Part shown: piece after piece, positions 2,712 to 6,886 of the stretch | How positions within the stretch are numbered: position 1 is the first letter of the stretch | How the letters are laid out: each line of letters opens with the position of its first letter | NCBI GenBank assembly: GCA_015063845.1 | Contig: SVTJ01000001.1 | Coordinates: 62,001-126,000, forward strand | Direction: 5' to 3' | DNA length: 64,000 nt | DNA from: Oscillospiraceae bacterium | GTDB taxonomy: Bacteria; Bacillota; Clostridia; Oscillospirales; CAG-272 | Notes under the pieces: model-generated | The model's database searches: none | What the model was told of the DNA's origin: nothing | What the model saw: the letters and a program-made list of their open reading frames with translations, nothing else | Program-made: the position numbers and the translations under genes

Positions 2712-2750
2712 AATGATAGGCAGAAGCGTTTTGCTTCTGCCTATCATTTT
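2710..2750. terminator. Bidirectional terminator between thiT and sigG
   Basis: An 18-base-pair perfect stem (2710-2727 with 2733-2750) has a five-base loop, flanked by A-run and T-run so that it works in both directions. It overlaps the stop codons of both convergent genes. Confidence 0.85.
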
Positions 2751-3525
2751 ACATTCTTTTTCTCATGTTCTCAAGCGCGCCCTTTTCAAGACGTGACACC
2801 TGTGCTTGTGAGATCCCTATCTCCTTGGCAATCTCCATTTGAGTTTTGTTGTTGTAATAACGCATGGTGATTATAGTTCTCTGGCGCTCGTCGAGAGACC
2901 GTATAGCTTCCTTTAATGCAATATTTTCAAGCCATACCTCGTCGTTGGACGAGGTGTCGCTTATCTGATCCATGACATATATCGAATCTCCGCCTGAATC
3001 GTTGTATACAGGCTCGTAAAGTGATATCGGCTCGATGATCGCTTCCATGGCTCTGACGACGTTTTCTTTGGCTTCACCTAAGCGAGCGGCTATATCGTTG
3101 ACGGTTGGCTCGCATTCCTTTTCTCGTATGAGCTCTTCTTTTGCTTGCAGAGCACGGTATGCGAGATCTCTAAGAGAGCGGCTAATGCGTATAGAATTAT
3201 TGTCGCGCAGATATCGTCTTATCTCGCCAATTATCATAGGGACAGCATAAGTCGAGAACTTTACTTCGAGTTCTATATTAAAATTGTCTACCGCCTTGAC
3301 AAGACCGATACACCCGACCTGAAAGAGATCGTCAAGATTTTCCCGCCTGCCTGTAAAACGCTGAACAACACTGAGTACAAGCCTTAGATTTCCACCGATA
3401 AGCTCACATCTTGCTTGCTCGTCTCCTTGCTTTGTGCGTAAAAGAAGCTCTTTCTTTTCTTCGTCCGTCAACACCTTGAGCTCGGAGGTGTTGACACCGC
3501 ATATTTCAACTTTGTTATAATACAT
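2749..3525 (-). CDS. sigG: RNA polymerase sporulation sigma factor SigG
   Basis: A 258-residue sigma-70-family protein. The N-terminus (MYYNKVEICGVNTSEL) is the diagnostic SigG start. Region 2 follows (NLRLVLSVVQRF, DDLFQVGCIGLVKAVDNF, FSTYAVPMIIGEIRRYLRDN), then region 3 and a region 4 helix-turn-helix (TQMEIAKEIGISQAQVSRLEK). SigG directs late forespore transcription, for example of small acid-soluble spore proteins and germination genes, so the organism is probably an endospore former. The frame is open to 3579, but the ATG at 3525 has a GGGAG ribosome binding site and begins the conserved N-terminus. In Bacillus and Clostridium, sigG normally follows spoIIGA-sigE; here the upstream neighbour is an ABC transporter, so sigG has moved or lost its usual context. 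The start region is buried in a leader hairpin described separately. Confidence 0.95.
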   Translation of the reverse strand: MYYNKVEICGVNTSELKVLTDEEKKELLLRTKQGDEQARCELIGGNLRLVLSVVQRFTGRRENLDDLFQVGCIGLVKAVDNFNIELEVKFSTYAVPMIIGEIRRYLRDNNSIRISRSLRDLAYRALQAKEELIREKECEPTVNDIAARLGEAKENVVRAMEAIIEPISLYEPVYNDSGGDSIYVMDQISDTSSNDEVWLENIALKEAIRSLDERQRTIITMRYYNNKTQMEIAKEIGISQAQVSRLEKGALENMRKRM

Positions 3526-3527
3526 AA

Positions 3528-3574
3528 AATACTCCCGAAAGTGTAGCACGAGTGTGCCTCTTATCGGGAGTATT
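3528..3574 (-). promoter_or_regulatory. Leader hairpin that sequesters the sigG ribosome binding site
   Basis: On the minus strand, the 11 bases at 3574-3564 (AATACTCCCGA) are perfectly complementary to 3538-3528 (TCGGGAGTATT), which contains the GGGAG ribosome binding site of sigG. The loop also holds a small GCAC/GTGC pairing. Any transcript starting upstream of 3574 would fold the site into a stem, while a start inside the loop would leave it open. Confidence 0.7.
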
Positions 3575-3592
3575 GACATTTTGTGGGGTTGT

Positions 3593-4198
3593 TTATTCAG
3601 CTACATCACTGTCACTTTTTACCTCTGAAAGGGAAGAGACAAGCGAGTTTTCCAGACGATAGATTTTATCACACATTACAAGCTCATCCTTGTCGTGCGT
3701 AATAAGTATTGCGGTCTTATCGGTGAGATACTCGGAAACTACCGATATAACACTTTTCTTTGTGTCCTCGTCGAGCCCCTTGAAGGGTTCGTCAAGCAAA
3801 AGAAGGTCGGGCTCGTATGCAAGTGCTCGAGCGATAGATACGCGTTGCTTCATTCCGCCCGATAATTCGTTGGGGTATTTGTCTGCGCTATCGGGAAGCA
3901 AAAGATTCAGATATTCACGTGCCTTTTGCTTGTCGTCACAAACGCATTCCACGTTTTCAAGTGCGGTCATCCAAGGGAACAAACGTGGCTCTTGGAAAAT
4001 GTAGCCTACCTTTTTATAGCTGTGAGTTATAGTTCCTTGGTAACGAACAAGTCCCGCTATGGCATTTATCAGTGTGGTCTTTCCAATGCCAGATGTACCC
4101 GTTAATGCGTGAACCTTTTTATCGTCAAAAGAGAAGCAAAAGTTATCGAGTACCGTTTGCTTATCGAATTTTACGGTTACGTTTTTAAGTATCAGCAT
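3593..4198 (-). CDS. ABC transporter ATP-binding protein, NitT/TauT (SsuB/TauB-like) family
   Basis: A 201-residue nucleotide-binding subunit. Visible motifs are Walker A GTSGIGKTT (about residues 34-42), Q-loop FQEPRLFPW, signature LSGGMKQR, Walker B LLLLDEP and switch histidine ITHD. The FQEPRLFPW block is typical of the nitrate/sulfonate/taurine import family. At about 200 residues it is short, lacking most of the variable C-terminal tail. Its start overlaps the permease stop by 14 bases, so the two are translationally coupled. It powers the permease and binding protein encoded upstream. The imported compound cannot be read from the sequence. Confidence 0.9.
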   Translation of the reverse strand: MLILKNVTVKFDKQTVLDNFCFSFDDKKVHALTGTSGIGKTTLINAIAGLVRYQGTITHSYKKVGYIFQEPRLFPWMTALENVECVCDDKQKAREYLNLLLPDSADKYPNELSGGMKQRVSIARALAYEPDLLLLDEPFKGLDEDTKKSVISVVSEYLTDKTAILITHDKDELVMCDKIYRLENSLVSSLSEVKSDSDVAE

Positions 4199-4976
4199 TG
4201 TTTGCTCCTTTCTTTACGACCCTCAGCTTGCGCGCAAGTGCTTCAAGTCCCCAAACGAAAAGCTTTTCGATGATAATGCTGAGAACTATAACAACAAGTG
4301 TCCACGCGAAAAGCGCAGGGGTCTCGAGATAGGTCTTTGAGAAGTACAGCTCTGTGCCGATCGCGTTTTTTGGCGTTGACAGTACCTCCGCGGATATGCC
4401 TGCTTTCCACGCCATGCCGAGAGATGAACGGCATGCCGCCATAAAGAACGGCGCGACAGACGGAACGTAAAGCTTAAAAAGCTTTTTAGCGGGTGTGAAA
4501 TTGTAGACCCTGCTTACCTCAATAAGGCTCTTGTCGACCGATCTTATTCCTTCCGAGACGTTGGACCAAACTATCGGAATGACAATAAGCGCGGTGATGA
4601 ACAAAGGAAGAGAATTTCTATTTATCCATAAAAGAGCAAGTATGATAAAGGAAGCAACGGGAGTGGATTTTACGACCGCGAGTACAGGGGAGAGCAAAGC
4701 GTTAAGTATTTTCGAATGCTCCGTTATTACAGCGAGAAGCGTACCTATTATAAGCGATATGATTATACCTGCGACGATCCTCAATAGAGATGTACAGGCT
4801 GTTTGCCAAAATTCGGCTGTAACTGCCAGCTCTCCAAGAGCTTTAATGACCGACGTCGGTGAGGGGAAGAGCAGCTCGCTGTTTACACGAAAGGAAACAA
4901 GACACCAAACGGCGACCCAAAATGCGATGACGCCGATGATCTTTAAAGCATTAAACAGTATTTTTTTAGCTTTCAT
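4185..4976 (-). CDS. ABC transporter permease, NitT/TauT (SsuC/TauC-like) family
   Basis: A 263-residue membrane protein with about six segments. The first follows a short basic N-terminus, and the last precedes a basic tail (ALARKLRVVKKG). The cytoplasmic coupling loop (VSRVYNFTPAKKLFKLYVPSVAPFFMAACRSSLGMAWKAGISAEVL) matches the EAA-type loop of SsuC/TauC permeases. It forms the membrane channel for the adjacent ATPase, whose start it overlaps, and for the binding protein encoded 29 bases upstream. Substrate unknown. Confidence 0.88.
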   Translation of the reverse strand: MKAKKILFNALKIIGVIAFWVAVWCLVSFRVNSELLFPSPTSVIKALGELAVTAEFWQTACTSLLRIVAGIIISLIIGTLLAVITEHSKILNALLSPVLAVVKSTPVASFIILALLWINRNSLPLFITALIVIPIVWSNVSEGIRSVDKSLIEVSRVYNFTPAKKLFKLYVPSVAPFFMAACRSSLGMAWKAGISAEVLSTPKNAIGTELYFSKTYLETPALFAWTLVVIVLSIIIEKLFVWGLEALARKLRVVKKGANNADT

Positions 4977-5005: not shown

Positions 5006-6088
5006 TCAGCCTGCGTTTGCAGTGTTGAGAGCGACGGTTACCTTAGGCTCGGGAAGTACGGCAAGAGGAGCAAGTCCGGCTGCGAATGCCGTTGCAAGAG
5101 CATCGGGGCTGTTATAGGTCGTGGTGTCGAGAATGACATCCTTTCCAACTTCAAGTCCTGCTGCTGTGAGAAGAGCAGCTGTGATATATTCGGGATTAGA
5201 GCCTGCACCGGGAAGATAAATGGTCTTACCCTTAAGGTCAGCCAAAGTCTTTATGCCCTGATCTTCGTTCTGAAGGAGATAGAGCACACCAAGCGTGTTG
5301 AGTGCGAGTAGCTGAAGCTTGCCGTTAGATGCGTTGAACAGCTTGACTGCAACGTTTGTGGGAAGAGCTGCAATAGCGCATTCCCCCTTAACGATAGCAC
5401 CCGTTATACCCTCGGCAGATGCGTGAAGCTCAATGTTATAATTCATACCTGCGTTACCAACCTTGCTGTCTTCAATGACCTTTGCCATTCCGAGAGCAGT
5501 TGTTCCGTTCAGGGCGTATATCTTTATTTCGGTATCCTTGTTAGCGGCAGATGCGTCACCGCTTGCGGTGTAATAGAAGCTGTCGGTGGGAAGCTTACCT
5601 CCGATAGATGTCTTGTTATAAGCAAATATCTTCTCGGAGAAAGTGTTCATAACGGGCTTCATATCGTTGCCTGCTATATAGCAGATGTTGCAATTGGGAA
5701 GAGCCTTCTTTGCTATCGCTGCCTTGGGAAGTATTCCAGCATTTACGATAGTGTTGATGGCGTCGTCGCTTCCTGTCTTGATAAACTCTACGGATGCGCT
5801 GTAATCAGCGAGAAACTTTGCAAGCTCATTGGGATGTTCGGCAGCCCAAGCGGTATTTACGACAAGGCAACCCTGAACAAGAGTATTTGCGCCGTTGAGC
5901 GTTTCCCATTCTTTTGTCATGTCAATGGCAACGGTTGCCTTTGCGGCGGTAGTGCCGTCAGTACCCGACGGAGTATTGCTGTTAGGCGCAGCAGGTGTAT
6001 TAGTGTTGTCAGCCGCGCAAGCCGTAAATAATACGAGCATAAGGAGCGCGAGCATAAGCGATAAAATTTTTGTTAGTGTTTTTTTCAT
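5006..6088 (-). CDS. ABC transporter substrate-binding lipoprotein, apparently circularly permuted
   Basis: A 360-residue lipoprotein: signal peptide with lipobox Cys24 (LFTAC), then a Thr/Pro/Asn-rich linker to about residue 50. The folded part is NitT/TauT-like, but its two halves are in swapped order. Residues about 50-173 (VAIDMTKEWETL, LVQGCLVV, FLADYSASVEF, KKALPNCNI, SIGGKLPTDSFYY) normally end such proteins. Residues about 186-360 (IKIYALNGTTALGMAKV, CAIAALPTNVAVKL, LLALNTLGVLYLL, DLKGKTIYLPGAGSNPEY, LPEPKVTVALN) normally begin them. The junction is a short linker (about 174-185). The last residues (LPEPKVTVALNTANAG) would in a normal relative run straight into VAIDMTKEW, so the two ends match. 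The swap is read from remembered family order. The protein should deliver substrate to the permease encoded downstream. Confidence 0.82.
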   Translation of the reverse strand: MKKTLTKILSLMLALLMLVLFTACAADNTNTPAAPNSNTPSGTDGTTAAKATVAIDMTKEWETLNGANTLVQGCLVVNTAWAAEHPNELAKFLADYSASVEFIKTGSDDAINTIVNAGILPKAAIAKKALPNCNICYIAGNDMKPVMNTFSEKIFAYNKTSIGGKLPTDSFYYTASGDASAANKDTEIKIYALNGTTALGMAKVIEDSKVGNAGMNYNIELHASAEGITGAIVKGECAIAALPTNVAVKLFNASNGKLQLLALNTLGVLYLLQNEDQGIKTLADLKGKTIYLPGAGSNPEYITAALLTAAGLEVGKDVILDTTTYNSPDALATAFAAGLAPLAVLPEPKVTVALNTANAG

Positions 6089-6148: not shown

Positions 6149-6817
6149 TTATTTGTAACTGAAAAGAGCATTTTTATCTAAAACTAAAATGTTTTTTCCG
6201 TCTTTCTTTATTAGGCCCTCGTTTTCAAGCGTCTCGATAGCTCTGTAAAGAGAAGCACGACCGACACCTAAAAGTTCGGCGAGCGATGACATCGATACCG
6301 ACGGAAGTGTCATATCCTCGGTGCAGTTCTTTGCAATATAAGCGGCGAGCTTGTTTTCAACCGTGCCCGCTGTAAGCGTGGATATCTTTTTATTTAGATA
6401 AACTATCTTGTTGCTCATTAACAAAAGGTAAGCTTTGAGCACGACAGGGTCGTTTTCGATCAAATCGCAAAAAGCTTTGCCGTCTATAAAAAGAACTTTT
6501 ACCGCTGTCTTCGCAATGATGATGCTTGGGAAGGGCTCGTTATCGCAATAAAGATTTGCAACACCGAACATATCGCTTTCGCACATAAGCTTTAGCAGGG
6601 CGTTATCCTTTGCTCCGTACGGTTCGCATTCTGCTTTTCCCGAAACGATGATACCGACAAGCTTTTTTTTGCTGTCCCTTGAATAGATCACCTCTCCTGA
6701 GCGATATTCTTTTACGAACAGTTTGTCATCAGTAAGATATCTGTCAATATTTTTTGTATCGGCGCAGGCAAGTATTCTGTTTTTTTGTGTACAAGAATAA
6801 AGTACGTCTCTTTTCAT
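6149..6817 (-). CDS. Crp/Fnr-family transcriptional regulator
   Basis: A 222-residue regulator. The N-terminal two-thirds is a cyclic-nucleotide-binding-like beta roll (YRSGEVIYSRDSKKKLVGIIVSGKAECE, LKLMCESDMFGVANLY). The C-terminus is a Crp-type winged helix (SMSSLAELLGVGRASLYRAIETLENEGLIKKDGKNILVLD). The beta roll lacks an obvious cAMP phosphate-binding RxS block and there is no iron-sulfur cysteine cluster, so the signal is unknown. The ATG at 6817 was chosen over 6886 because AGAGGTG lies just before it and a consensus promoter with a palindrome lies upstream. The gene reads toward the ABC transporter 60 bases downstream, which it may control or be co-transcribed with. Confidence 0.85.
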   Translation of the reverse strand: MKRDVLYSCTQKNRILACADTKNIDRYLTDDKLFVKEYRSGEVIYSRDSKKKLVGIIVSGKAECEPYGAKDNALLKLMCESDMFGVANLYCDNEPFPSIIIAKTAVKVLFIDGKAFCDLIENDPVVLKAYLLLMSNKIVYLNKKISTLTAGTVENKLAAYIAKNCTEDMTLPSVSMSSLAELLGVGRASLYRAIETLENEGLIKKDGKNILVLDKNALFSYK

Positions 6818-6836
6818 ATTGCACCTCTGGATAAAA

Positions 6837-6852
6837 TGTCTCATATGAGACA
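6837..6852. promoter_or_regulatory. Perfect 16-bp palindromic operator at the crp-like gene
   Basis: TGTCTCATATGAGACA is a perfect palindrome. It begins about six bases past the -10 box of the minus-strand promoter, so it covers the expected transcription start. That position fits repression, most simply autorepression by the Crp/Fnr-like protein encoded next to it. Whether this protein binds it is inference. Confidence 0.75.
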
Positions 6853-6857
6853 ATTTT

Positions 6858-6886
6858 ATTATAACATCAATTTTTCTGTTTGTCAA
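6858..6886 (-). promoter_or_regulatory. Consensus sigma-A promoter for the Crp/Fnr-like regulator
   Basis: On the minus strand TTGACA (6886-6881) and TATAAT (6863-6858) match consensus exactly with a 17-base spacer. A strong promoter with a palindrome on its start site is a typical tightly repressed arrangement. Confidence 0.85.

Follow-up and report, generated by a model that had tools for sequence, protein, structure and literature searches.

The protein encoded at positions 5006-6088 of the window (the whole stretch of 64,000 nt that was analyzed, from an Oscillospiraceae genome, G000) is very probably a true circular permutant among the type II (NMT1/THI5-like, NitT/TauT) substrate-binding lipoproteins, one that serves an ABC importer and whose gene was permuted in place at least eight times within one family of gut Clostridia. 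The two sequence blocks of the permuted genes are swapped, their old termini are joined, and a new signal peptide with a lipobox precedes the new start; these genes occupy the same operon slot as their canonical relatives and have several origins, and no further copy turned up in the searched genomes. The circular permutation proposed in a sequence-only reading of the window is supported by the data.

Architecture of the permuted gene and its operon

The gene is situated away from the edge of a 353-kb contig and belongs to an operon with permease and ATPase genes, as in NitT/TauT-type systems. The operon and the parts of the encoded protein are the following (positions in the window).

3593-4198, minus strand: cognate ATPase (PF00005; profile match, locus comparison)
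4185-4976, minus strand: cognate permease (PF00528; profile match, locus comparison)
5006-6088, minus strand: permuted substrate-binding lipoprotein gene, 360 aa (phmmer against 3hn0, congener comparison)
6017-6088, minus strand: signal peptide and putative lipobox up to Cys24, residues 1-24 (by-eye reading)
5936-6016, minus strand: residues 25-51, a T-, P-, N-, A-, and G-rich linker at the new N-terminus (ORF dissection)
5570-5935, minus strand: residues 52-173 (122 aa), TVAIDMTKEW...DSFYY, corresponding to the C-terminal block of canonical relatives (sequence comparison)
5534-5569, minus strand: 12-residue linker from the old C-terminus to the old N-terminus, residues 174-185 (ORF dissection)
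5036-5533, minus strand: residues 186-351 (166 aa), TEIKIYALNGTT...LPEPKVT, corresponding to the N-terminal block of canonical relatives (sequence comparison)
5009-5035, minus strand: residues 352-360, a tail of nine residues at the cut, followed by the stop codon (5006-5008)
6149-6886, minus strand: CRP/FNR-like regulator upstream of the operon (profile match; start approximate)

A phmmer search against the PDB aligned residues 184-355 and 109-171 of the window protein to residues 3-159 and 216-278, respectively, of 3hn0 (BDI_1369 of Parabacteroides distasonis, deposited as a nitrate transport protein/ABC transporter). This protein is the nearest solved relative in both sequence and fold, but it has the canonical order and aligns in sequence to the permuted protein only as these two swapped pieces. 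The swapped block order described in the sequence-only reading is borne out by them and by the opposite order found at this locus in 13 congeners and three outgroup genera. The block borders drawn there proved right to a few residues (52-173, linker 174-185, 186-351, and the nine-residue tail), and the signal peptide and linker noted ahead of the new start were recovered in the ORF dissection. The secondary structure of the C-terminal-type block fits the canonical elements from strand 226-230 onward. The 12-residue linker resembles the linkers of the permuted congeners G011, G005, and G015, and that of G021 to a lesser degree. We take the Cys24 motif to be a lipobox; the cysteine is invariant in a 14-row alignment (A4). 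Read by eye, all 15 permuted ORFs begin with a signal peptide and a cysteine in a lipobox-like setting, and they are predicted to encode lipoproteins.

Membership of the NMT1/THI5-like family is indicated by Pfam profile PF09084, against which the window protein (P0001) scores 28.3 bits, above the curated cut-off of 20.5. Among the relatives, the canonical proteins L039 and L040 score 32.7 and 35.8 bits and the permuted L037 scores 22.3 bits, while the permuted L038 falls under the cut-off with 15.8 bits. PF09084 matches a single stretch per protein, and both swapped pieces within the window protein itself come from the phmmer comparison with 3hn0. The matched stretches depart from the segment order of the profile: residues 272-332 of the window protein fall on profile positions 78-137, and residues 72-111 of its permuted orthologue L038 fall on positions 171-210. 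The window protein also narrowly passes PF12974 (Phosphonate-bd; 27.7 vs. a cut-off of 27), and both it (48.4 bits) and the canonical L039 (44.6 bits) remain below the 163.5-bit threshold of TIGR01728 (SsuA_fam). Since profile annotation yields only partial matches, more permuted proteins may have been overlooked.

Binding-protein matches were found in 18 of 30 genomes of the window's genus (g1). The gene slot in this genus is bordered by the CRP-like regulator and by the permease and ATPase genes, and galE and a nucleotidyltransferase-like gene are mostly present on the other side. The block order is C-N in five genomes (G000, G011, G005, G015, and G021) and N-C in the other 13. Because permuted and canonical genes share one operon slot, the switch happened in place and not in a second gene; no second binding-protein copy was found in the window's genome, where the six other matches cover query residues 1-64 only (E ≥ 0.009). 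The CRP-like gene and the permease flank the permuted gene at all 15 permuted loci. The ATPase gene is absent from view at two of them, in G291, where the contig stops within the permease, and in G175, where no query match was obtained. The permease gene of the permuted G011 (L056:6274-7058) is split between two reading frames, one giving residues 1-40 and the other 39-262, which points to a frameshift or a sequencing error. A sigma-factor-like gene lies beside the transporter operon (2749-3579 in the window) and is present at 14 of the 18 g1 loci; by-eye resemblance suggests the sporulation type.

Distribution and conservation of the permuted order

A total of 128 loci were dissected, the window included (130 fetched minus L166 and L224, each with one block missing), as a subset of all matching loci. 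The canonical order was observed at 113 loci and the permuted order at 15, each of the latter carrying the gene as one open frame. The sequence-only reading had proposed checking whether relatives have the swapped order as the standard, and they do not: within the 128 loci, permuted genes are confined to six genera of one bacterial family, and all 34 loci outside these genera are canonical.

Larger samples were screened for matches spanning both blocks. At least 196 of 295 genomes of the family matched (at most six candidates were scored per genome), and at least eight had a single match spanning both blocks in the permuted order; five of these eight (G175, G291, G338, G074, and G260) belong to genera other than g1. 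Searches within the other five genera gave permuted genes in 3/48 matching genomes of g46, 2/17 of g51, 3/24 of g52, 1/2 of g42, and 1/5 of g55. Among the matches listed for the 205 matching genomes of the order sample, a two-block permuted match was observed in G000 and G074, both from this family, and four further genomes had a single weaker match each. The class sample, searched with a stricter threshold, contained one both-block permuted match (G000) in 76 matching genomes. A distant canonical relative of the binding protein is present in a spirochaete, a Sphaerochaeta metagenome-assembled genome (L042). One locus filed under genus g63 (L243, contig C125 of G232) carries a g1-type canonical operon with match values equal to those of G029, which suggests binning contamination.

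The sequence-only reading held that the protein looks functional, and this view gains support from low dN/dS where measurable, conserved residues, and operon context. Among the eight pairs of permuted genes compared, dS is finite although high in five, whose dN/dS ratios range from 0.07 to 0.13, and the remaining three pairs are saturated at synonymous sites; the eight pairs share species. Twenty-four columns are at least 95% conserved in the 113 canonical proteins, and 23 or 24 of them are kept in 14 of the 15 permuted proteins. The exception, G364, keeps 20 of 24, and two of its misses are prolines in a moved segment outside the aligned block. These observations support purifying selection on the permuted genes, and the permuted protein is predicted to be the binding protein of its own ABC importer.

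Number of origins and probable gene replacement

When both blocks were compared, the nearest canonical protein of the same genus was 55-82% identical to each of the 15 permuted proteins, vs. 40-61% for the nearest permuted protein of another genus. In comparisons with other genera, the best canonical protein equaled or exceeded the best permuted one in identity, again in all 15 cases. The permuted congener is nearer than the canonical congener in g1, in g51, and for G338, so the events per genus may be fewer than the changes on a tree. A 66-row tree of both blocks (15 permuted rows and 51 canonical rows chosen by the analyst from 113) requires 10 changes of block order, at least nine of which are forced by well-supported branches; a quick tree of 128 rows requires 11. 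A single origin was seen in none of 200 bootstrap trees for the 66 rows (the bootstrap being not fully settled), and the log-likelihood drops by 813 units when all 15 permuted proteins are forced into one clade (AU p = 3.3e-6). Such counts carry no direction, which is provided by the canonical outgroups as a change from canonical to permuted.

The cut lies at a common surface loop in 14 of the 15 permuted proteins. One origin for the three permutants of g52 is not rejected (p = 0.105). For g46, the grouping of G074 with G350 is rejected (p = 0.014), and G364 (L144/L234) is cut elsewhere, before and not after the LPEP-holding segment. A conservative tally assigns three permutations to g46, one or more to g52, and a single one to each of g1, g42, g55, and g51, which makes at least eight independent events. 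In G364 the chain begins within the portion that belongs to domain II (INLVSEADHDAVV...LPEPKATV) and continues with the C-block, a linker, and a shortened N-block.

A single ancient permutation, with cross-genus spread by horizontal transfer, would fit the shared cut loop of 14 of the 15 proteins and the good support, inside g1, for movement of the binding-protein gene on its own. However, a canonical congener being nearer in every case than any permuted protein of another genus, the rejection of one clade by the AU test, the different cut of G364, and linkers that by eye are unlike between genera refute this scenario across genera, barring whole-block gene conversion models that restore one clade, and we regard it as highly improbable. 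Still less credible is a permuted order ancestral to the family, from which most lineages reverted in place. The directionless change counts are compatible with it, but the 34 loci dissected beyond the six genera are uniformly canonical, as are the deep branches all through the family, 3hn0, and the Sphaerochaeta protein, and two-block permuted matches are confined to G000 in the class sample and to G000 and G074 among the matches listed in the order sample; moreover, reversals would far outnumber gains, each reversal being itself a permutation. An assembly or binning artefact has a negligible probability. The six named relatives are indeed metagenome-assembled genomes, but the permuted order recurs in 15 genomes and six genera, in one operon slot and with clean in-frame linkers, the dN/dS ratios between permuted orthologues are low where measurable, and the window gene is well inside its contig. 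With so many cases a local assembly rearrangement is hardly an explanation, and chance is excluded.

The five permuted genomes of g1 were compared by several genes. The rpoB gene, considered as a species-tree marker, was matched in 21 of 30 genomes and missed in G005, G015, and G021, and therefore flank and operon genes were used in its place. A clade of the five permuted genomes is rejected by the flank genes (p = 0.00094), by the permease and ATPase (p = 0.0005), and by the CRP-like gene (p = 0.0006). The binding-protein trees join all five, with support of 96/92 in the 66-row tree and 89/92 in another tree. Single-block trees are weaker than joined ones: the C-block alone joins the five permutants (95/90), and the N-block tree does not join them, yet joining is not rejected (p = 0.32).

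The simplest reading seems to be a single origin of the permuted gene in g1, followed by its transfer into another lineage, where it took the place of the resident binding-protein gene while the permease and ATPase genes stayed. Two permutations without transfer, one in the lineage of G000 and one in the ancestor of G011, G005, G015, and G021, would agree with the flank genes and the permease and ATPase, which place G000 with the canonical G009, G029, and G024, and since the binding-protein data do not reject this placement (p = 0.31), two events in g1 are still conceivable. Against them stand the union of the five in the binding-protein trees, the TASGDAS motif common to the 12-residue linkers of G000 and G011, and the rejection by the binding-protein data of the placement of the other four permutants beside G019/G010 given by the partner genes (p = 0.018). 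We therefore consider two events in g1 unlikely and favor a single event followed by gene replacement.

Probable cut site, proposed route, and known permuted binding proteins

The model predicted for the permuted protein is of fair quality (pLDDT of 78.4), and four other models have values of 51.6-65.9. In structure, a canonical relative best matches 3hn0 and SsuA/TauA-type proteins; together with the sequence match of the window protein to 3hn0, these matches point away from the type I (cluster B) fold. TauA and SsuA belong to class II, and their domain borders, as given in the accessible parts of two publications (PMC6906117, PMC3839906), were used to place the cut. In one structural alignment of the fair model, the C-terminal residue 357 aligns to residue 187 of TauA, inside domain II (105-201), so the permuted model lacks the placement of both termini in domain I that is typical of NitT/TauT-type proteins. 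The cut thus appears to fall within domain II, immediately ahead of the second hinge. A cut at the second lobe crossing, with one crossing left, had been considered and was overturned by the TauA/SsuA alignment. Since the cut would precede the crossing, both crossings between the lobes should remain, and both hinge crossings and the pocket are probably preserved. The old termini would lie in domain I, joined by a linker of 10-13 residues, and the new termini in domain II, and hence the lipid anchor has probably shifted from domain I to domain II.

The linkers of the permutants are 10-13 residues long, and the tails of the 14 proteins cut at the common loop have 5-14 residues. The linker end in g1 resembles the post-lipobox residues of canonical congeners (KADKNLEMKIY in G005 vs. 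KADKELEIKVY in G029), a trace to be expected if the gene was duplicated in tandem and the copies were then fused, the inner signal peptide being lost. Such a route might begin with a tandem duplication that keeps the reading frame, or with a template switch to the same effect, after which the end of the first copy would be fused to the start of the second with loss of the inner signal peptide, the N-terminal half of the first copy would be deleted behind its signal peptide, and the second copy would be truncated at the loop. Tandem duplication and loss is the likeliest route of permutation; it is unproven, as no tandem or fused intermediate was found in the 128 fetched stretches (about 2-12 kb each), which hold one place per block throughout. 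Two candidate block-joining intermediates suggested by tblastn across stop codons, G129 and G318, have one block each in the canonical order, and the extensions were therefore spurious.

Natural circular permutation is usually seen as rare and old; it is deduced from comparisons of distant families whose intermediates have disappeared. The permutation described here is recent, with permuted and canonical orthologues in one operon slot reaching 82% protein identity, and the close pairs G436/G422, G175/G132, G291/G228, and G000/G009 open its route, its neutrality, and the choice of the loop to direct test. Tentatively, the gene may be a permutation hot spot, in which the same loop is reused because an anchor on domain II, in place of one on domain I, is repeatedly favored (e.g., in opening or permease docking) and whose permuted form also spreads between species by replacing the resident gene; we hold this reading possible rather than probable. 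If true, it would constitute a replicated natural experiment on circular permutation.

The nearest precedent found for a natural permuted binding protein is TpMglB-2 (Tp0684) of Treponema pallidum, for which its authors, in the accessible text, proposed the name "Type Ic" (PMC4990184), and the surprising part of the present case is its recurrence. Both are natural, tethered, circularly permuted binding proteins of ABC systems, and the available parts of that paper raise tethering as a possible reason for the permutation and report that TpMglB-2 still binds ligand and has relatives of the same topology in treponemes and in Gram-positives, many of these being gut commensals (PMC4990184). According to the same partial source, the fold of TpMglB-2 is type I (cluster B) and carries a fourth crossover as an addition; the moved part of TpMglB-2 is only 13% identical to its counterpart, and the authors leave an origin from another gene open (PMC4990184). 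The window protein, by contrast, is of type II and NMT1-like, permuted and canonical congeners are up to 82% identical, and the event is recurrent. TauA and SsuA, class II sulfonate-binding proteins of the NitT/TauT family, share the fold class of the window protein, but they have the canonical order and both termini in domain I, as far as their available descriptions go, and 11-20% identity in structural alignments. Engineered permuted halves of the ribose-binding protein and a "domain dislocation" model that leads from type I to type II, as described in the accessible parts of one paper, show that rearrangement is tolerated by the fold (PMC9815098); these are laboratory single-lobe constructs and a deep evolutionary model, in contrast to recent natural permutants.

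A partial literature search, covering few subscription papers, returned neither a permuted type II binding protein nor a gene permuted repeatedly. Circular permutation has reportedly occurred in the OpuAC family, a claim that was not found in the portion of the OpuAC literature consulted. Foldseek alignments of the permuted model with the OpuAC chains 5nxx_C, 2b4m_A, 2b4l, and 3chg were weak, extending over 211-257 columns with an rmsd of 12.4-13.5 Å and TM scores of 0.22-0.40.
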